Notes under the pieces: generated by a model
The model's input: only the letters and a program-made list of their open reading frames with translations
The model's database searches: none
What the model was told of the DNA's origin: nothing
Part shown: one piece after another, positions 381-8,617 of the stretch
How the letters are laid out: each line of letters opens with the position of its first letter
How positions within the stretch are numbered: position 1 is the first letter of the stretch
Assembly: GCA_011170325.1 (NCBI GenBank)
Contig: DUEX01000042.1
Location: 1 to 32,770, forward strand
DNA from: Dehalococcoidia bacterium
GTDB lineage: Bacteria; Chloroflexota; Dehalococcoidia; GIF9; UBA5629
DNA: 32,770 bases
Reading direction: 5' to 3'
Made by a program: the position numbers and the translations under genes

Positions 381-3044
381 ATGTCTGAAATCCCTAAGGC
401 TTACGAGCCAAGTAAGGTTGAGCAGAAGTGGTATGGTTTCTGGATGGAGCAGGGCTACTTCACGCCGAAGATAGACCATAAGGAGAGACCCTTCGTCATC
501 ATCATGCCGCCGCCTAATGTCACCGGCGAGCTTCACCTAGGGCATGCTCTAACAGCTACATTGGAGGACATTATGGTCAGGTGGCATCGGATGAAGGGCG
601 AGTCTACCTTATGGCTGCCTGGAGTTGACCATGCTGGCATTGCTACTCAGGTAGTAGTGGAGCAGAAATTAGCCAGGGAAGGAATAGACCGACATCATTT
701 GGGCAGGGAGAAGTTCATTGAGCGTGTCTGGGAGTGGGTGAGCAAGGCACGGCAGTCAATCACCTACCAACATCAGAGACTGGGAGCTTCGTGTGACTGG
801 ACTCGGGAACGTTTTACTCTTGACGAAGGACCGAGCCTGGCAGTTCGTACTGCCTTCGTTCGTTTATATAATAAAAGGCTGATTTATCGTGGAGAGCGAA
901 TTGTAAACTGGTGTCCTCGTTGCCAGACGGCACTTTCTGACCTGGAAGTCCAGCATAAGGATGTAACAGGCAATCTCTATTATCTTCGTTATCCCCTAGC
1001 TGATGGTGATGGCTTTGTTACCGTGGCTACCACTCGACCCGAGACCTATCTTGGTGATACTGCGGTGGCAGTGAATCCTGAAGATAGGCGTTTCAAGGGC
1101 TTGATAGGCAAGAAGGTGGTCCTTCCAGTTATTGGAAGGGTGATTCCTATTATCACTGACAGTGCTGTTGACCTGACATTTGGTACTGGTGCAGTTAAGA
1201 TTACTCCAGCTCATGACCCGGTGGACTTCGAAATATCCGAGCGACAGGGTCTGCCGGTGATAAATATATTGAACTCAGACGCTACTATGAATGAACAGGC
1301 TGGTCCTTACGCTGGTCTTGACCGCTTTGTCTGTCGGCAAAGCGTATTAGCTGACTTTGAGAAGGCTGGGCTGCTGGAAAAGATTGAGCCACATTCCCAC
1401 TCGGTAGGACACTGTGGCCGCTGCCAGACGATGATCGAGCCTGAGGTCAGCAAACAGTGGTTTGTTAAAGTAGCGCCATTGGCTGAGGCGGCAATCAAAG
1501 CTGTTGTTGAAGGTCGGATTACCATAATTCCGGAGCGCTTTACCAAAGTCTATCTTAATTGGATGGAGAATATCCGTGATTGGTGCATCAGCCGCCAGTT
1601 GTGGTGGGGTCATCGAATTCCGGCATGGTATTGCCATAAATGCGGTGAACTGACGGTAACTGTTGATGAGCCTGTTGTTTGCAGTCATTGTGGCTTGGCT
1701 GAAATCGTTCAGGACTCTGATGTGCTCGATACCTGGTTTAGCTCGGCATTATGGACGCACTCAACTTTAGGCTGGCCTGAGGATACCGAGGACTTGGGCT
1801 ATTTCTACCCGACCTCGGTTATGGAAACTGGCTATGACATATTGTTCTTCTGGGTAGCCAGGATGGTCATGATGGGACTGGAAGATACCGAGGATATCCC
1901 ATTTGACACCGTTTATCTGCATGGGTTGGTTCGGGATGAGAAAGGCGAGAAGATGAGCAAGATGCGGGGAAATGTTCTGAGTCCTATCGACGCTATAGAT
2001 GAGTACGGCACTGATGCCCTTCGCTTTGCCGTTACAATCGGCACTTCGCCGGGGAACGATGTTAGTCTTGGTCGGCATAGATTAGAAGCTGGACGCAACT
2101 TTGCTAACAAGCTGTGGAATGCTGCCAGATTCGTACTTCAAAGCCTTGAGGCTAAGCCGATAGAAGGTCGGGCATTAGCAGAGTTAGCAGTAGAGCGCCC
2201 AGAGCCGATAGAAGACCGCTGGATTTTAAGTCGGCTCAGTCGTCTTGTTCTCAATGTTAACAAGTCGATATCTGATTTCCAGTTTGGAGAGGCTGAGCGA
2301 CAAGTCCACGACTTTTTCTGGGGTGAATTTTGCGACTGGTACATCGAGATAGCTAAAATCCGTCTGTCTCAGTCAACCTCTTCACCTCTGCCTGTTTTGG
2401 CCCTTGTCCTGGAGACGACACTTCGCCTCCTCCATCCCTTTATGCCGTTTATTACTGAGGAGCTATGGCAAAACTTGAAGCACCGTTCACCTGAAGGCAC
2501 TCTCGATTCAGCTTCTATCGTGATTGCGCCATATCCAGTTGCCGATGAGAAGGTTATCGACCCTGAGGCTGAGCAGGTGATGGACTCAGTCATAGAAATC
2601 ATCCGTTCTATTCGCAATGCTCGGGCTGAGCACAAAGTAGCCGCAGCTAAGTGGATTGAAGCCCAGGTGTATGCTGACAAGCTTGCTCCAGCTCTAGCTT
2701 CGCAGTCCAAGGCTATAGAAACCTTAGCTAGGGCTCGGCCTCTGGTTATGTTGAGTCGTGACCGGAGGCGAGATGGAGGGGAGAAAGCTCTGGTCCTGGT
2801 GCTGAAGGAGGCTGAAGTGGTCTTGCCCTGGGCAGGCATGGTTGAGTTAGTTGCTGAAAAGCAACGTTTGGAGAGGGAAATCAGCACGAATCAAAAGGAA
2901 ATTGCCCGGCTGCAGGAAAGGCTGAAAGATGCTGCTTTCGTGTCCAAAGCACCGGCAGTGGTAGTAGAGAAAGAGCGTGGCAAGCTTCGAGCTTGTGAAG
3001 ACAAGTTGGTGAGGTTGAAGCAGGAGCTGGCTCAGCTCAGCTAA
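381..3044 (+). CDS. valS: Valyl-tRNA synthetase
   Basis: Class I aminoacyl-tRNA synthetase that charges tRNA-Val with valine in the cytoplasm. The HIGH-type motif PPPNVTGELHLGHA is near the N-terminus. A CP1 editing domain with TTRPETYLGDTAVAV follows. The KMSKS-type loop is KMSKMRGN, followed by the anticodon-binding domain. The C-terminus is a charged coiled coil (LVAEKQRLEREISTNQKE onward), the tRNA-binding arm typical of bacterial ValRS. CxxC pairs in the insert (CPRC, CGRC, CHKC, CSHC) suggest bound zinc. The ORF track begins at GTG 363, but ATG 381 is preferred because GAGGGA lies 10 nt upstream and the protein then begins MSEIPKAYEPSKVE, the usual ValRS start. The length of 887 residues is normal. 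The 3' end overlaps the convergent hypothetical gene by 8 nt. Confidence 0.97.
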   Translation: MSEIPKAYEPSKVEQKWYGFWMEQGYFTPKIDHKERPFVIIMPPPNVTGELHLGHALTATLEDIMVRWHRMKGESTLWLPGVDHAGIATQVVVEQKLAREGIDRHHLGREKFIERVWEWVSKARQSITYQHQRLGASCDWTRERFTLDEGPSLAVRTAFVRLYNKRLIYRGERIVNWCPRCQTALSDLEVQHKDVTGNLYYLRYPLADGDGFVTVATTRPETYLGDTAVAVNPEDRRFKGLIGKKVVLPVIGRVIPIITDSAVDLTFGTGAVKITPAHDPVDFEISERQGLPVINILNSDATMNEQAGPYAGLDRFVCRQSVLADFEKAGLLEKIEPHSHSVGHCGRCQTMIEPEVSKQWFVKVAPLAEAAIKAVVEGRITIIPERFTKVYLNWMENIRDWCISRQLWWGHRIPAWYCHKCGELTVTVDEPVVCSHCGLAEIVQDSDVLDTWFSSALWTHSTLGWPEDTEDLGYFYPTSVMETGYDILFFWVARMVMMGLEDTEDIPFDTVYLHGLVRDEKGEKMSKMRGNVLSPIDAIDEYGTDALRFAVTIGTSPGNDVSLGRHRLEAGRNFANKLWNAARFVLQSLEAKPIEGRALAELAVERPEPIEDRWILSRLSRLVLNVNKSISDFQFGEAERQVHDFFWGEFCDWYIEIAKIRLSQSTSSPLPVLALVLETTLRLLHPFMPFITEELWQNLKHRSPEGTLDSASIVIAPYPVADEKVIDPEAEQVMDSVIEIIRSIRNARAEHKVAAAKWIEAQVYADKLAPALASQSKAIETLARARPLVMLSRDRRRDGGEKALVLVLKEAEVVLPWAGMVELVAEKQRLEREISTNQKEIARLQERLKDAAFVSKAPAVVVEKERGKLRACEDKLVRLKQELAQLS

Positions 3045-3741
3045 AAGCTACCTTTTTCAAGGCTAAGTTGTGGTGCATCTGTATCAGGGCTTTCTTGGTA
3101 TCACTAGCCACCCGGGATTTATCGCAAATTTTTAGACGATGCTTGAATAGCCAGTAGGTGAATTCCTTAAGTTCATTCACGCTCATAGATTTGCGTTTCG
3201 GACATTTCTTCTCTTTTCTGAATTTATCCAGTAGAGCTTGCTGACTGGCGCCGTAAATTCGGTGGTATGCCTTGTCGAGCTCATCCTCATATTTATTTGA
3301 GCCTGAAGCACGCTTCTCTTTGCGAATCTCGTTGACTACGGCTAGAATCAAAGCCTCTTCGACTAGAACACCGTAGAGATAATTGAGATAAGCCCGATAT
3401 TTGGCAGGGCCGATTAATCTTTTAAATCTCTCCTTGGTCAGCTCTAAGGGCGGCCGGTCGAAGAAGAGGAGGTCGGTTTTTTCCTTTTCTGGAATGGACT
3501 GGCTTATTTCCTCGCACAGACGCTCTGCCAACAGTAGCCAGTCGAAAGCCTCGCCATCAATCAGGTAGCAATAGTGGCGCCCGTCGTAATTTTCCCCGGC
3601 GCTGTTCCATAATTTGATAGCTTCGAGTAAAGCTAAGTACCAGTGCTTGCCGTTAGCTACAGCTTGTTTAAGGTGCTCGATTGCCTCGGTATCACCTTCA
3701 GCCCTGACGTCTGAAATGTTCTGTTCTCCTTGTAATGGCAT
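3037..3741 (-). CDS. Conserved hypothetical protein downstream of polX
   Basis: I do not recognise a named family. From the ATG at 3741 the product is 234 residues, soluble and mostly charged alpha-helix. It has an aromatic N-terminal part (GKHWYLALLEAIKLW, then YCYLIDGEAFDWLLLAERLC) and a basic C-terminal half. No signal peptide, membrane segment or nuclease motif is visible. The ORF track starts at 3819, but the first 26 codons there only shadow the end of polX and are Gly/Ser/Gln-rich. The ATG at 3741 lies 15 nt after the polX stop and fits an operon. Residues of the LIDGEAFDWLLLAERL type look conserved rather than random. Association with PolX suggests a DNA-related role, but that is a guess from position alone. 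Confidence 0.75.
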   Translation of the reverse strand: MPLQGEQNISDVRAEGDTEAIEHLKQAVANGKHWYLALLEAIKLWNSAGENYDGRHYCYLIDGEAFDWLLLAERLCEEISQSIPEKEKTDLLFFDRPPLELTKERFKRLIGPAKYRAYLNYLYGVLVEEALILAVVNEIRKEKRASGSNKYEDELDKAYHRIYGASQQALLDKFRKEKKCPKRKSMSVNELKEFTYWLFKHRLKICDKSRVASDTKKALIQMHHNLALKKVAFS

Positions 3742-3755
3742 CTGCCTAGGCTTTC

Positions 3756-5471
3756 CTACCTGGAGAGAGCCATAACCTCCTCCACTGGCCTGGTATTGAG
3801 TATATGCTGGGGTTGGCACCAGCCACGGCGGGCGACGCCAACACCGAAGCGCATAAAGCTTAGCTGGGCACTGCTATGGGCGTCTGTGTCCAAGATTAGC
3901 TTTACTCCCATTTCTCGCGCTCGATAGGCATGAATATCTTTCAAATCAAGTCGGCTGGGCATAGCGTTGATTTCTAAGGCCTTATTATACTTAGCTGCGG
4001 CTCGGAAGACGGCTTCTAAGTCGACAGCTACTGGCTCTCGCTCACCGAGGAGGCGACAGGTGGGGTGGGCAATGACATCAACATTTGGGTTTTCTATAGC
4101 TCCTAAAATACGCTTGGTTATTTGTTCTTCGCTTTGGGTCATAGCTGAGTGGATGGCGGCGATAACGATATCCAGATCGGCTAGAAGCTCCTGGGGTGAG
4201 TCCAGGCTACCGTCAGCCCGGATATCCACCTCTATGCCGCAAAGGATATGAATGCCATCAAGTTGCTGATTGAGCCGTTTGATTTCATCGATTTGTCTTC
4301 TCAGCCGTTCCTCGTTAAGTCCATGGGCAATGCCTCGCCCGCCTGAATGGTCGGTGATTGCCAGGTACTGATAACCAAGGGCTTTAGCTGCCAGAGCCAT
4401 GGCTTCGATGGACTCATGCCCATCGCTCCAGTCGGTGTGAGCATGGAGGTCTCCCTTTATATCTGACAATTCCACAAGCCTGGGGATAGCGCCTTGCTCA
4501 GCCATTTCTATCTCTTGCTGGGCTTCTCTCAGCTCCGGTGGAATATATTGAAGTCCCAGTCGGTGGTAGAAATCTTCCTCAACAGGGAATTTCTCCAGCT
4601 TATCTTCAGCCAGGTCGGTGATGCCGTATTCGCTTAGTTTTAGCCCCTGCTTTTGTCCTCTTAGTCTCAAGCCAATGTTGTGTTGCTTGCTGCCGGTGAA
4701 ATACTGGAGCAGGGAGCCGAAGGAGTCGTGCTCCACCATTCTCAGGTCAGCTTGGAGTCCGCCGGGGAGGATAGCGCTGGCTTTAGTTGGGCCTTGAGCC
4801 AACACTCCCCTTATTTGAGGCAGGGCGACGAAGGTGTTGATAACCTCCTCTGGATTATCGGCTGTGCCCATAAGGTCGATATCACCCAGCGTTTCTCTGA
4901 AGCGGCGCAAGCTACCGGCGGCGGTCAGATTTCTGACCCCGGGCAGGGGGTGGAGAGCGTCCAGAATCTCTTCCACCATAGGTAAAGCTTCACCTATGGG
5001 GATACGCTGGTCTTTACGGCGCAGGGCTTGAATCTGGTGCAAGATATTGTCGGCCGTCTTGTCGCCGAGGCGAAACATCTTGGCTACCTGCCCATCTTTG
5101 ATAGCCTGCTCTAACCCATCCACAGATTTTATTTCCAGTTCAGTGGAGAGCCTTTTTGCTGTCTTAGGCCCGATGCCCGGGATTTCCAGCAGGCTGGTTA
5201 TGCCTTCGGGGAACTCGGCTTTGAGGTTTTCATAGTAGCCTAGTTTCCCGGTAGTCATCAGCTCAGTAGTTTTCTTAGCTATTGCCTCGCCCACCCCTGG
5301 GATGTTCTTCAAATCCTCGCCCTCCTCGAGCATGGTCTCTATTTCTTTAGGCAGGTGCTCGATGGCCCGGGCCGCCCGCTGATAAGCTCGAATCTTGAAT
5401 ACATTTTCCCCCTTGAGCTCTAAGAGGTCAGCGATATCCTGAAATACTTTAGCAACAGCCGTGTTTTTCAT
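3756..5471 (-). CDS. polX: Family X DNA polymerase / PHP 3'-5' exonuclease (PolX)
   Basis: Bacterial PolX is a gap-filling repair polymerase fused to a PHP metal-dependent nuclease. The 571-residue length matches the B. subtilis enzyme. Helix-hairpin-helix motifs lie near residues 55-70 (IPGVGEAIAKK) and 95-110 (IPGIGPKTAKR). The nucleotidyltransferase signature GSLRRFRETLGDIDLMG is near residue 186 and holds the metal-binding DID. The PHP domain begins near 343 with HAHTDWSDG and continues with AITDHS, CGIEVDI and LDTDAHS, all expected metal ligands. No strong Shine-Dalgarno sequence precedes the ATG; a TACATT hexamer 6 nt upstream may give a leaderless mRNA. A double dyad (5496-5537) lies just upstream and probably controls this gene. 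The next gene down starts 15 nt after the stop. Confidence 0.95.
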   Translation of the reverse strand: MKNTAVAKVFQDIADLLELKGENVFKIRAYQRAARAIEHLPKEIETMLEEGEDLKNIPGVGEAIAKKTTELMTTGKLGYYENLKAEFPEGITSLLEIPGIGPKTAKRLSTELEIKSVDGLEQAIKDGQVAKMFRLGDKTADNILHQIQALRRKDQRIPIGEALPMVEEILDALHPLPGVRNLTAAGSLRRFRETLGDIDLMGTADNPEEVINTFVALPQIRGVLAQGPTKASAILPGGLQADLRMVEHDSFGSLLQYFTGSKQHNIGLRLRGQKQGLKLSEYGITDLAEDKLEKFPVEEDFYHRLGLQYIPPELREAQQEIEMAEQGAIPRLVELSDIKGDLHAHTDWSDGHESIEAMALAAKALGYQYLAITDHSGGRGIAHGLNEERLRRQIDEIKRLNQQLDGIHILCGIEVDIRADGSLDSPQELLADLDIVIAAIHSAMTQSEEQITKRILGAIENPNVDVIAHPTCRLLGEREPVAVDLEAVFRAAAKYNKALEINAMPSRLDLKDIHAYRAREMGVKLILDTDAHSSAQLSFMRFGVGVARRGWCQPQHILNTRPVEEVMALSR

Positions 5472-5477
5472 TGGCTT

Positions 5478-5483
5478 AATGTA
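5478..5483 (-). promoter_or_regulatory. Candidate -10 hexamer for polX
   Basis: On the minus strand TACATT ends 6 nt before the polX ATG. There is no good -35 hexamer at 16-18 bp, and the region where one would sit overlaps the double dyad. This would fit an activator-dependent or repressor-gated promoter with a nearly leaderless transcript. It is inferred from sequence only. Confidence 0.35.
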
Positions 5484-5495
5484 ATGTCCTACCTA

Positions 5496-5537
5496 TTGAG
5501 CACAGTTTGTGTTCAATTGAACATTAGCTATGCTCAA
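5496..5537. promoter_or_regulatory. Double palindromic operator between the methyltransferase gene and polX
   Basis: Reading the plus strand there are four heptamers in perfect overall symmetry: TTGAGCA, 7 nt, TGTTCAA, then directly TTGAACA, 7 nt, TGCTCAA. The central 14 bp TGTTCAATTGAACA are an exact palindrome, and the outer heptamers are exact inverted copies about the same centre. Each half is itself a TTGARCA-N7-TGYTCAA dyad of 21 bp, so the two dyad centres are 21 bp (two helical turns) apart. This is the layout expected for two dimers bound side by side on one DNA face. It lies 25-66 nt upstream of the polX start codon and downstream of the methyltransferase stop. The regulator is unknown. 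Confidence 0.6.
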
Positions 5538-5546
5538 TTCTCTCAC

Positions 5547-6470
5547 TTATCCACTTCCAGTCGGGGTTGCCGTGGTCGAAGAAGGACCTTCGACCTTGTT
5601 TCTTTTGCTTATTCTACCCCTCTCATACCTAGCCCATCTTATAGAGCGATTTTGTTGCTCCTTCTCAGATTCGAGGGAGGGCTTGCGCATGATGAAAAGA
5701 TACTTGAAACCGCGAAGGTAAAAATTGAACCTTCTTGCTCTATTGTGCCAAAGCCCTGTATTTGAAGTTTGGCCTCTCCTGACCACACAAATAACGTCTA
5801 CGGTCTCGAAGTATTTACATAGTCGCTCATATAGTTTGAAGCCTACGGGTGTAAACCTCTTCTTGACCCACTGGTCACCAATTAGCCAGCCCATTACCTT
5901 GCCGGGCTTTAAGATCCTGTAAATTTCGGCTGCAACTTTTTCAAGTTCATCGAAGAAACGCTCATCCTCGCAGGAAATCTTGCCGATGCAATCAGGGTGG
6001 TCGGAATAGTTTATATTGTCAGAATAGGGGGAGTCTATGAATACCATATCTGCAGAGTTATCCGATAGAGGTATGCTCCGGGCATCATTTTGTATAACTT
6101 CGGGGTGTGCTGGGGCTATATCATATCCGATGACCTGTCGTTCTTCTTCCTTGCATACATCGATTGTTGTGCCACTTCCTGCCATCGGGTCTATGACCAA
6201 ATCGCCTGGCTTGGTATATCTTTGGACGAGATTCCAAATTATGAATGCTGGTGTGACGGCAGGATATTTGTTATTGCCTTTTGGTCTTTTGCCATAGCTT
6301 TGTCTTGGATAATCCCACAGAGTGGTGGCCTCTAGCACAGGCCTTTCAGCTTTTACTTCCTTAATTTTGCTAGCCTGAGTCTTGCTAGGTTGATAAGCGA
6401 AGCCATTTTGTGGCATGTCCTTGAATAGCGGAAGCGTGGTTTCTGCATCTCTAGATTTTCTTTTGGTCAC
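5547..6470 (-). CDS. DNA methyltransferase (N4/N6 amino-methyltransferase family) of an R-M system
   Basis: S-adenosylmethionine-dependent DNA methyltransferase of 307 residues. The SAM-binding motif is DPMAGSGTTIDVC near residue 95, followed by GYDIAP (acidic SAM ligand). The catalytic loop is FIDSPYSDNINYSD, a DSPY form of the D/N/S-PP-Y/W motif IV. Motif I precedes motif IV, and no large separate target-recognition domain is obvious. A later RRGQTSNTGLWHNRARRFN segment may contact DNA. GTG 6470 is used as start because GAGGGAG, inside the end of the endonuclease gene, lies about 9 nt upstream. The endonuclease stop is only 5 nt away, so the two are cotranscribed. The last 35 residues are polar and low in hydrophobics and may be a tail changed by a late frameshift. 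Confidence 0.9.
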   Translation of the reverse strand: MTKRKSRDAETTLPLFKDMPQNGFAYQPSKTQASKIKEVKAERPVLEATTLWDYPRQSYGKRPKGNNKYPAVTPAFIIWNLVQRYTKPGDLVIDPMAGSGTTIDVCKEEERQVIGYDIAPAHPEVIQNDARSIPLSDNSADMVFIDSPYSDNINYSDHPDCIGKISCEDERFFDELEKVAAEIYRILKPGKVMGWLIGDQWVKKRFTPVGFKLYERLCKYFETVDVICVVRRGQTSNTGLWHNRARRFNFYLRGFKYLFIMRKPSLESEKEQQNRSIRWARYERGRISKRNKVEGPSSTTATPTGSG

Positions 6471-6475
6471 GGATA

Positions 6476-7174
6476 TTATCTCCCTCGAATTATTGATCGT
6501 AAATCCTGAATGAAGTTTGGGAATGCCTTGACCTTTTCACTCTCTGCAAGGTGGCGTAAGGCGTAGGTTCCATCTAGCTCGTGCTCAACAATAATCCTGT
6601 TCCGAGAAGGATTTGCCATATCTTTAACTAGATCTCCATCCTCGTCGGCGGTTATGAAGTATCCCTTAATGTGCATAGTTAGAGGGTCGCTTGCGAGCTT
6701 CAATTTCCAATATGCTGTTTGAGCGATTCTCTCACGTAATGTTATTTTACATGATATGACTCCAATTACATTGGACGTCTTGGGTTCGTAAATAACCAAA
6801 TCTACATCAGGAAGTAGTGCCCACTCTCCATATCTGACGAGGAGGTTGCGATATACCTTACTCAGTTCTGGTGTGAGATTTTTCCTTTTTAGTGTTGCAC
6901 CTGGAATGACTCGAAGATCGACGGCCTCCAATTCATCCCTAATCACATGCCAAATCAACTTCTCGAAGTTCTTACCCTTGAACGCTTTCCATGATTGCTC
7001 GGCATCTGGTGTTTTCCCTTTGGCCCTTAGTTTCAAAGCTTTGGAGCTTGATAGGTATTCTTGCTTATACTTTTCTCTTGCCTCCTCAAAGATCTCGGAA
7101 ACATGGAGATAGACTCCATCTGCGTATAATTTTTTCTTAGCTTCGTACATTGTTATTAAATCGTTGAGTTTCAT
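6476..7174 (-). CDS. Type II restriction endonuclease, possibly CCGG-family (BsaWI-like)
   Basis: This 232-residue protein is encoded immediately before the methyltransferase. It carries a PD-(D/E)xK-type core: LLPDVDLVIYEP, then about 18 residues later VISCK, followed by ITLRERIAQTAYWKLKL. The S-x-K form (serine where an acidic residue usually sits) followed at once by an R-(D/E)-R element is what Cfr10I, NgoMIV and BsaWI-type enzymes use to read CCGG. I therefore favour that group, with recognition of a CCGG core as an inference. The relocated acidic catalytic residue could not be assigned by eye. The N-terminus is helical and charged. The start ATG has GGGGG about 9 nt upstream. The restriction-nuclease role is likely; the site specificity is uncertain. 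Confidence 0.75.
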   Translation of the reverse strand: MKLNDLITMYEAKKKLYADGVYLHVSEIFEEAREKYKQEYLSSSKALKLRAKGKTPDAEQSWKAFKGKNFEKLIWHVIRDELEAVDLRVIPGATLKRKNLTPELSKVYRNLLVRYGEWALLPDVDLVIYEPKTSNVIGVISCKITLRERIAQTAYWKLKLASDPLTMHIKGYFITADEDGDLVKDMANPSRNRIIVEHELDGTYALRHLAESEKVKAFPNFIQDLRSIIRGR

Positions 7175-7226
7175 CTTAGTTTACCCCCAACTAGCTCTAG
7201 GCCGTGCTCAATTATGAAACTCGGGT

Positions 7227-7439
7227 CTAGCTTTTAAGTGTTGCATCGCTTAATTCAATGTCCTCAATCCCGTCCCAGCAGCTCAGGTGGCAGGCGTAGC
7301 GGACACAAGAGCCACGGAGGGTTAGGTTGTCATCCGATTCAGCAATATTGCCTTCGGCTATCATAAGAACAGGTTGCCCTTTTGTCATCGGCTCCTGGCA
7401 TTTATCACAGGTGGTAACACCTAAACGAGCTTCTATCAT
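7227..7439 (-). CDS. Small zinc-ribbon-like protein upstream of the R-M genes
   Basis: A 70-residue protein with a very strong ribosome binding site (AAGGAGGT, 5 nt from the ATG), so it is likely translated. It has TTCDKCQEPM near residue 9 and RYACHLSCWDGIED near residue 50, which could together hold one zinc ion through CxxC and CHxxC ligands. No helix-turn-helix is apparent, so it does not look like a classical controller protein of an R-M system. It ends 52 nt before the endonuclease start on the same strand and could share its transcript. Function is unknown. The HLSCW element resembles the second half of treble-clef or LIM-like zinc fingers. Confidence 0.7.
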   Translation of the reverse strand: MIEARLGVTTCDKCQEPMTKGQPVLMIAEGNIAESDDNLTLRGSCVRYACHLSCWDGIEDIELSDATLKS

Positions 7440-7455
7440 AGTGACCTCCTTAAAC

Positions 7456-7551
7456 CTACCTTACGCAGCAGTGCTTGTATTTTTTGCCTGAGCTGCAGGG
7501 GCAAATTTGCTGTGACCTATTACTGCCTCCGATAGATTTAATTTCGATGTG
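7456..7551 (-). pseudogene. SEC-C metal-binding tail remnant, a diverged copy of the secA 3' end
   Basis: The minus strand reads [21 protein letters not shown] and a stop, clearly the C-terminal SEC-C zinc motif (compare the secA end [15 protein letters not shown]). There is no start codon before the upstream in-frame stop, so this is a fragment. At the DNA level about 47 of 55 bases match between 7449-7503 and 8647-8701, including bases beyond the stop codon. That argues for a DNA duplication of the secA end rather than an unrelated SEC-C gene. The upstream part of this open frame only shadows the RelE remnant. Confidence 0.7.
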
Positions 7552-7629
7552 CTACACGAAGTATTATACGATTTCTTTATCTTCAATGTCGAAGATGACT
7601 CTGTAATCTCCAAAATCTATAAGTTCCTA
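7520..7629 (-). pseudogene. RelE/ParE-type toxin remnant, C-terminal end, frameshifted
   Basis: One minus-strand frame reads ELIDFGDYRVIFDIEDKEIV then stops. The +1-shifted frame continues IILRVAHRN, stop, IYRRQ. Joined, these give GDYRVIFDIEDKEIVIILRVAHRN.IYRR, the standard final strands of RelE-family toxins. At least one frameshift and one nonsense change are needed, and the N-terminal half is not recognisable, so this is a dead fragment. No antitoxin gene is beside it. Confidence 0.65.
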
Positions 7630-7903
7630 GGGGCACGCAGGCAGCCAGGTGAAAAATATAGGGGAGATATCGTCTCCTATCGGGTGGAGAGCTTCGTCAA
7701 CGCTGATAGATAGGGATTTTGGGAGATGCAGAGCATGGCTCGCATGTTGAGGGCCACTGCAAGGCTTCGAGAGGGCAATTGACAACCAGATGCCATGGCT
7801 ATATTATTTTCGACAAAAGCGATAAGGGGACAGGACTGTGCCACCGCGAGTTGAAGTGGGAAATCCCGGTTACAGTGAGGACCCCGGCTTATAGGAGGTT
7901 GTC
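7630..7903. other. Non-coding or decayed stretch before the DJ-1 lipoprotein gene
   Basis: This 274-nt stretch has no convincing gene. One plus-strand frame (TTG 7719 to TGA 7905-7907, 62 codons) overlaps the next GTG start and includes FDKSDKGTGLCHRELKW, which looks faintly protein-like. A second frame just upstream reads YRGDIVSYRVESFVNADR and a stop. They could be two pieces of one decayed gene, but I recognise no family. The GGAGG at 7894-7898 serves the downstream GTG at 7904. Confidence 0.3.
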
Positions 7904-8590
7904 GTGAGAAAGCATAAATCTTGTTCCATTGCCATCATAGTAGTAGTTCTTCTACTGGCTAGCTTGGTGACAGCTTGTGCCTCATCTGCACCGAGTTCGG
8001 CACCGCCCACGGAGATGCCTTCTACTACGGAGAGCCCACAACAGGGCCAACCTGCTGAAGAAGGGGCGGCCGAAGAACCCACGCCCCCTGCCGCCAAACT
8101 GGCATTGTTCGTCATCTACAATCAATTCCACGAGACGGAGTATGGCGAACCGCGTGCTGTACTGGAGGACGCCGGCGTCATCGTGACCGTTGCCTCTTCG
8201 TCGCTAGACGCAGTAACAGGCCATTCGGGCATGCAGGTGGAGCCGGACGTAGTGCTAGGTGATGTGTATGCTGCCGATTATGATGCCATCGTCTTTGTGG
8301 GTGGCTACGGGTATGACCAGGATGGCCCGGAAGCCTGTCGTGTCGCGCAGGAGGCGGCCGCCGAGGGCAAAGTGCTGGCGGCTATCTGCATAGCGCCGAT
8401 AACACTGGCTAAGGCGGGTGTGCTGGATGGCAAGCGTGCAACGTCCTCCGTCCTACGCTCGGAGCTAGAGGCGGAAGGTGCTATCTGGACTGGCGCTACG
8501 GTCGAGCGCGATGGGCTCATCATCACTGCTAATGGTCCTGCAGCAGCACGCCGCTTTGGGGAAACCATTGTTGCAGCACTGGAGGAGTGA
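7904..8590 (+). CDS. DJ-1/PfpI-domain lipoprotein
   Basis: A 228-residue predicted lipoprotein. A basic start, a hydrophobic stretch and the lipobox LVTAC with cysteine 25 give signal peptidase II processing. A Pro/Ser/Glu-rich linker follows to about residue 63. The rest is a DJ-1/PfpI (class I glutamine amidotransferase-like) domain: FVIYNQFHETEYGEP carries the usual conserved Glu, YDAIVFVGGYG is the core strand, and LAAICIAP holds the nucleophile-elbow cysteine near residue 162. The family often has AICHGP; here the residue after Cys is Ile, so protease or deglycase activity is not assured. GTG 7904 is supported by GGAGG 5 nt upstream. The gene looks more GC-rich than its neighbours and sits in a patch with decayed fragments, so transfer is possible. 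Its outer-face location is unusual for this mainly cytoplasmic family. Confidence 0.88.
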   Translation: MRKHKSCSIAIIVVVLLLASLVTACASSAPSSAPPTEMPSTTESPQQGQPAEEGAAEEPTPPAAKLALFVIYNQFHETEYGEPRAVLEDAGVIVTVASSSLDAVTGHSGMQVEPDVVLGDVYAADYDAIVFVGGYGYDQDGPEACRVAQEAAAEGKVLAAICIAPITLAKAGVLDGKRATSSVLRSELEAEGAIWTGATVERDGLIITANGPAAARRFGETIVAALEE

Positions 8591-8594
8591 CGCG

Positions 8595-8617
8595 GAAGCG
8601 GCTAGCCATGCCGCTTC
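8595..8617. terminator. Hairpin between convergent lipoprotein and secA genes
   Basis: A perfect 8-bp stem GAAGCGGC/GCCGCTTC with a 7-nt loop starts 5 nt after the lipoprotein gene stop and lies 37 nt beyond the secA stop on the other strand. There is no clean T-run on either side, so it may be a weak or bidirectional terminator. Confidence 0.5.

Follow-up and report, generated by a model that had tools for sequence, protein, structure and literature searches.

A 42-bp tandem operator before polX in a Dehalococcoidia bacterium, probably orphaned by loss of a wHTH-MNT/HEPN toxin-antitoxin module

In a 32,770-nt stretch of a Dehalococcoidia genome (hereafter the window), a 42-bp site directly upstream of polX was probably left behind as the orphaned tandem operator of a lost wHTH-MNT/HEPN toxin-antitoxin module of the PADLOC PDC-M05 type. 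The first-pass annotation had described a double dyad here and had missed that the site is the operator of a toxin-antitoxin family gone from the window genome.

Results

The site occupies window positions 5496-5537 and consists of two abutting 21-bp dyads with 7-bp arms, TTGAGCA-N7-TGTTCAA (5496-5516) and TTGAACA-N7-TGCTCAA (5517-5537), with no gap between them. These coordinates and the abutment agree with the first-pass annotation, which had also called the whole symmetric; the overall symmetry is true for all four arms, not for each base, with 17 of 21 positions paired over the full 42 bp and mismatches in the N7 spacers. Within each dyad, six of the seven arm positions pair, and the fifth is either G opposite T or A opposite C. 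The two palindromes are exactly 21 bp apart from center to center, and an abutting dyad pair with at least 6/7 paired arm positions occurs a single time in the window.

polX, encoding a family X DNA polymerase/3′-5′ exonuclease with a PHP domain (Pfam; NCBIfam PRK08609), lies on the minus strand at 3756-5471, so the dyad at 5517-5537 (operator dyad 1, TTGAGCATAGCTAATGTTCAA, minus strand) is the distal one, upstream in the polX sense, and the dyad at 5496-5516 (operator dyad 2, TTGAACACAAACTGTGCTCAA, minus strand) is proximal and adjoins polX. In wHTH-MNT operons, the corresponding slots lie between the -35 and -10 hexamers for dyad 1 and after the -10, just before the start codon, for dyad 2. 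A 24-nt leader (5472-5495, minus strand) runs from the end of the double dyad to the polX ATG; judged by the synteny with genome G025, it would mark the place where the wHTH-MNT and HEPN genes were lost, and no coding remnant of either is visible in it. At its other end, polX is overlapped by an ORF of 260 aa (3037-3819, minus strand) that has no Pfam, PADLOC, or NCBIfam match.

Exact matches to TTGARCA-N7-TGYTCAA in the 1.8-Mb window genome are restricted to the two at this site. Other intergenic copies in the same genome, the lack of which the first-pass annotation had listed among its refuting conditions, are absent; with an orphaned autoregulatory site, this is to be expected. Among 393 genomes of the class, five contain the exact motif. 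In G003 the match precedes polX, and in G025 it precedes a toxin-antitoxin pair followed by polX; the other three are the window genome, G089, and G220. The matches in G089 and G220 are single dyads without a partner and were taken as strays.

G025 belongs to another family of the order. There, about 1 kb separates the double dyad from polX, and two genes directly behind the dyads fill this gap, giving the order operator, wHTH-MNT, HEPN, polX, with the polX ATG overlapped by the HEPN stop. The first gene encodes an ArsR-like winged helix plus an MNT nucleotidyltransferase (Pfam Polbeta/NTP_transf_2; PADLOC PDC-M05A, 2e-50), and the second encodes a HEPN protein (PADLOC PDC-M05B, 6e-24). GS-x10-DxD, the known motif of the MNT antitoxin, was read from the MNT sequence, and R-x5-H was read from the HEPN sequence; the motif of HEPN toxins is Rx4-6H (PMC4621449). 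Motifs and gene adjacency thus identify the G025 pair as a HEPN-MNT module, in agreement with the family assignments and the structural matches. An AlphaFold2 model of the wHTH-MNT protein, computed from an alignment of 20 homologues with plasmid sequences left out, had a mean pLDDT of 88. Foldseek matched this model to MntA/HEPN-MNT structures (8xeh, 8xeo, 7bxo, and 6m6u) on the antitoxin side and to the ArsR-type proteins SqrR, HlyU, PagR, BigR, and CadC on the repressor side, and it follows from the Pfam and NCBIfam coordinates that the former correspond to the C-terminal half and the latter to the N-terminal half. The winged-helix half also weakly matches NCBIfam HTH_metalloreg. The modeled regulator is thus predicted to combine a winged helix of the ArsR type with a nucleotidyltransferase resembling MntA.

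The same double dyad was found directly before the start codon in four modules located away from polX (L097, L098, L138, and L139), the fetched flanks of which contain no polX. In all four, TTGACN stands 1-2 nt upstream of dyad 1; the L138 operator is TTGACGG-TTGAACACAAATAGTATACGA-TAGAACATAAATTGTGTTCAA, and the other three are alike. As read from the sequence, the module promoter would have a spacer of 17-18 nt and a -10 hexamer lying across the dyad junction. In L138 (genome G197), the HEPN frame is only 75 aa long and the middle part with the R-x-H motif is gone; this module may be decaying, with the toxin lost first. Furthermore, wHTH-MNT relatives with 52-60% identical winged helices and a related operator occur at L107, L109-L111, and L113-L119 (genomes G002, G010, G011, G014-G016, G020, G021, G042, G043, and G045). 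Their proteins have a long linker and have apparently lost the MNT catalytic motif, and no HEPN gene follows in the ones inspected (L107, L109, L114, and L116), so they look like antitoxins turned stand-alone regulators.

The 21-bp spacing extends beyond this operator sequence. Most upstream regions of distant wHTH-MNT genes hold two palindrome copies 21 bp apart, and the palindromes themselves vary (GCAGTA..TACTGC, GTACC..GGTAC, TTACCC..GGGTAA, ATGCCC..GGGCAT, GTTAC..GTAAC, and ACCC..GGGT). When the wHTH-MNT genes were divided by eye into 14 groups, a spacing of 21 bp was best or joint-best in 8 of them, and one group favored 20 bp. The class-mean score was 11.4 at 21 bp, compared with 9.97-10.8 at other spacings and with 9.44 in shuffles (sd 0.27; maximum of 200 shuffles, 10.07). 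Examples with 21-bp spacing reach plasmids of Bradyrhizobium and Sulfuricella. The solo regulators (class 1b) showed no 21-bp preference by symmetry scoring, the ungapped form of which is too noisy for them; their sites were read via the sequence motif. These data suggest that a pair of palindromes with 21-bp spacing is general upstream of wHTH-MNT genes, whereas the palindrome sequence differs between subfamilies. The proposal in the first-pass annotation of two cooperating repressor dimers two turns apart fits these results, since the tandem site of the window recurs in promoters of genes encoding a winged-helix protein, which would be a natural autorepressor.

Operator identity was then scored with a 42-column matrix trained solely on the four operators of modules not adjoining polX. 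The window site ranked first of 65,458 positions at 30.6 bits, and the next ranks went to the reverse strand of the same site and to overlaps shifted by 21 bp. Among unrelated sites of the window, the highest score was 9.0 bits, and 20 weaker two-mismatch sites that were fetched scored at most 6.8 bits. Leave-one-out scores of the intact-module operators were 37-53 bits. The window site again came first after eleven more distant sites were added to the matrix (15 in total). By its sequence, the window site matches the operators of modules not adjoining polX.

The first-pass annotation would have taken a lack of conservation before polX in relatives as a refutation, but the dyads are conserved: the same double dyad was found 13-24 nt upstream of polX in G003, G004, and G023, three genomes from two other genera of the family to which the window genome belongs; it is absent before most other polX genes of the order. 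At least one dyad is degraded in each of the three. The -35 slot holds TTGACG, TTGACT, or TTGACA in intact class-1 modules, and the TTGACA of G004 and the TCGACA of G003 in this slot are apparent fossils of the module promoter. Alignment by position places GAGAGA in the former -35 slot of the window (5539-5544, minus strand). At the dyad junction, the former -10 slot (5516-5521, minus strand) reads TTCAAT, compared with TACGAT, TACTAT, or TACATT in intact modules and TACAAT in G025. The fixed register of TTGACN and -10 with the dyads is thus missing from the window, and no sigma-70-like promoter was called in the region around the site, which fits an orphaned copy, not a working one.

Directly downstream of the window site stands polX instead of a wHTH-MNT gene. 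Searches of the window genome with the wHTH-MNT protein, the HEPN protein, and the PDC-M05A profile gave no match; the genome is a 92%-complete draft, in which a regulator could be missed. With no cognate regulator found, the site would now be orphaned, probably a relic of a complete module rather than a member of one. Weighing on the other side are the lack of a coding remnant in the leader, the single genome (G025) with an intact module at the polX locus, and the window site being even more regular in form than the operator of G025.

The arms of the dyads have also been retained unusually well. Among the four polX-adjacent copies they are 75-86% identical, compared with 56-66% identity at polX fourfold sites, and in every pair of copies the arms are more conserved than the N7 spacers. 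In a neutral simulation on a four-taxon tree with a perfect ancestor, about 25 arm mismatches were expected in the four genomes, whereas 9 were seen (P ~2.5e-4), and the zero arm mismatches of the window genome had P = 0.0002; the tree was crude (Jukes-Cantor, fourfold sites, four genomes), and the outcome is treated as a lead. Judged by this simulation, a simple dead relic does not seem to explain the arm conservation: either the module losses were repeated and recent, or the site has retained a role for polX. It is conceivable, though doubtful, that the module-derived operator was co-opted and is now an active polX control site, with a regulator encoded elsewhere, in the missing genome part or on a mobile element, or belonging to another family. 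The arm conservation and the simulated rejection of free drift since the common ancestor speak for such co-option, as does the polX start codon, which now takes the position of the antitoxin start. It is opposed by the lack of a regulator match in the window genome, by the degraded dyads of the three relatives, and by the window site being without a recognizable promoter; moreover, among the M05A proteins that G003, G004, and G023 encode elsewhere, the ones with inspected upstream regions have other operator sequences. Independent recent module losses would account for the conservation equally well. A more specific form, rather unlikely in our estimation, is that the host took over the operator and that polX is ruled in trans by a winged-helix regulator, perhaps an antitoxin brought in by a mobile element. 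In its broader version, wHTH-MNT antitoxins as a class would autorepress via two palindromes exactly two helical turns apart, fixed in spacing and diverging in sequence.

An improbable alternative is that the site acts as RNA, with a hairpin between polX and the upstream methyltransferase gene serving as terminator or attenuator. The strand does fold better than shuffles (-20.5 kcal/mol, z -3.8), but the homologous sites of G003, G004, and G023 adopt different folds, and the A opposite C of dyad 2 persists uncompensated in four of five genomes. In addition, the site has no U-run and no Rfam match, and in the toxin-antitoxin loci it lies within the promoter. The hairpin was therefore rejected, as a good fold whose structure is not conserved and that belongs to no Rfam family.

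The dyad might instead be native to polX, with the wHTH-MNT/HEPN pair of G025 having been inserted downstream and having captured it. Four polX-adjacent copies against one with a module at the locus would favor this order of events. However, in four other genomes the same operator precedes wHTH-MNT genes that do not adjoin polX, and a related form precedes the eleven solo derivatives; the site is also lacking before the majority of polX genes in the order, and an apparent fossil -35 stands before polX. This reading, which we regard as very improbable, is already largely refuted.

The first-pass annotation had named a controller linked to restriction-modification (R-M) or a DNA-damage or phage-state regulator as possible. 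An N6/N4 DNA methyltransferase gene (5547-6470, minus strand) and a BsaWI-like restriction endonuclease gene (6476-7174, minus strand) lie upstream of the polX site and are neighbors outside the operator system. G004 and G023 carry the dyad before polX without a BsaWI-like pair (the locus encodes an HNH protein and a different methyltransferase in G004 and holds other genes in G023), so the dyad is not part of the restriction system and the R-M linkage is refuted. A C-protein-type control box of the R-M operon or a LexA/SOS box, as the nearby R-M pair and repair gene might suggest, has next to no chance of being correct, since the dyad lies behind the R-M genes, not before them, the motif differs from GAAC-N4-GTTC and from the E. 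coli LexA type, as the first-pass annotation had rightly noted, and the further full-strength genomic copies needed for an SOS regulon or a DNA-damage regulator are absent.

The upstream flank has been rearranged in the window as well. The 3′ remnant of a small acidic ORF (..FFNHGNPDWKWI..; approximately 5524-5590, minus strand), which precedes polX in relatives, is read through out of frame by the methyltransferase 3′ end, and its own stop lies inside dyad 1. The methyltransferase C terminus (..TATPTGSG) in the window, G003, and G012 is the 3′ part of this small ORF in another frame, and this frame-shifted overlap is a scar of the arrival of the methyltransferase. The plus strand carries a terminator-like hairpin with a T tail at 5574-5595, within the methyltransferase 3′ end. 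The whole interval between secA and polX (window 5472-8600; L056-L062) is a turnover spot whose occupants vary among relatives and include various R-M genes, a Phd/RelE-like pair (G012), a DUF2283 gene, and the wHTH-MNT/HEPN pair of G025. The small acidic ORF next to these turnover genes encodes a hypothetical protein of 68-77 aa.

Discussion

We propose that the 42-bp site is an orphaned operator and that a module formerly separated it from polX, as is the case in G025 today. In an intact module, dyad 1 would fall in the -35/-10 spacer and dyad 2 just after the -10, so that two ArsR-like antitoxin dimers, two helical turns apart on one DNA face, could switch the module off; the bound dyads would block RNA polymerase, and the HEPN toxin would probably modulate the antitoxin dimers. 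This mechanism is drawn from the promoter layout and from the autorepression of the Shewanella HEPN-MNT system (PMC4621449). In the window lineage, both genes would once have been present and then have been removed by a deletion that began right behind the operator and ended right ahead of the polX leader. The operator would thereby have come to lie directly before polX with its recognizable -35/-10 gone, leaving only a landing site that presumably no longer functions.

Promoter-overlapping palindromic sites are usual in the ArsR/SmtB family, to which the winged-helix half is linked by its Foldseek matches; the G025-type winged helix differs in being fused to a nucleotidyltransferase. HEPN-MNT modules, their mobility, and their autoregulation are already known (PMC2701414, PMC4621449). 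Like the type VII MntA/HepT pair SO_3165-SO_3166 of Shewanella, the G025 module has MNT before HEPN and an MNT half that matches MntA/HEPN-MNT structures. The Shewanella antitoxin binds and represses its own promoter, which contains two palindromes (PMC4621449). However, no DNA-binding domain is predicted in the Shewanella MNT, and the palindromes there are dissimilar and located at -10 and -35 (PMC4621449), whereas the G025 branch has an ArsR-like winged helix fused in front and matched palindromes 21 bp apart; the window carries neither of the two genes. The G025 pair also conforms, by its profile scores, to PDC-M05, the PADLOC nucleotidyltransferase-plus-HEPN candidate for phage defense, which is listed as unvalidated, with its antiviral role unconfirmed (PMC12988326). 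In AbiE (AbiEi/AbiEii), too, the antitoxin autoregulates via inverted repeats that it binds in its own promoter (PMC7319586); AbiE differs in that the nucleotidyltransferase is the toxin and in the families involved. No description of a PDC-M05 operator was found in the literature searched. Nor did this search, which covered few subscription journals, turn up an account of the tandem 21-bp operator in the wHTH-MNT branch, of an orphan toxin-antitoxin operator, or of an orphaned copy before polX.

Few mobile gene pairs are as widespread as HEPN-MNT. A 2009 survey considered it improbable that the putative antitoxin regulates transcription and proposed that a DNA-binding partner acts in trans (PMC2701414). 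In the branch described here, the nucleotidyltransferase has a predicted ArsR-like DNA-binding domain of its own and a readable, rule-like operator; therefore, autoregulation is directly testable, and lost modules are recognizable as scars by their DNA signature. For polX itself, the finding is at most a lead; if the takeover by the host were true, gain or loss of a toxin-antitoxin element would switch a repair gene. The orphaned operator points to a route by which a housekeeping repair gene ends up behind a foreign operator.
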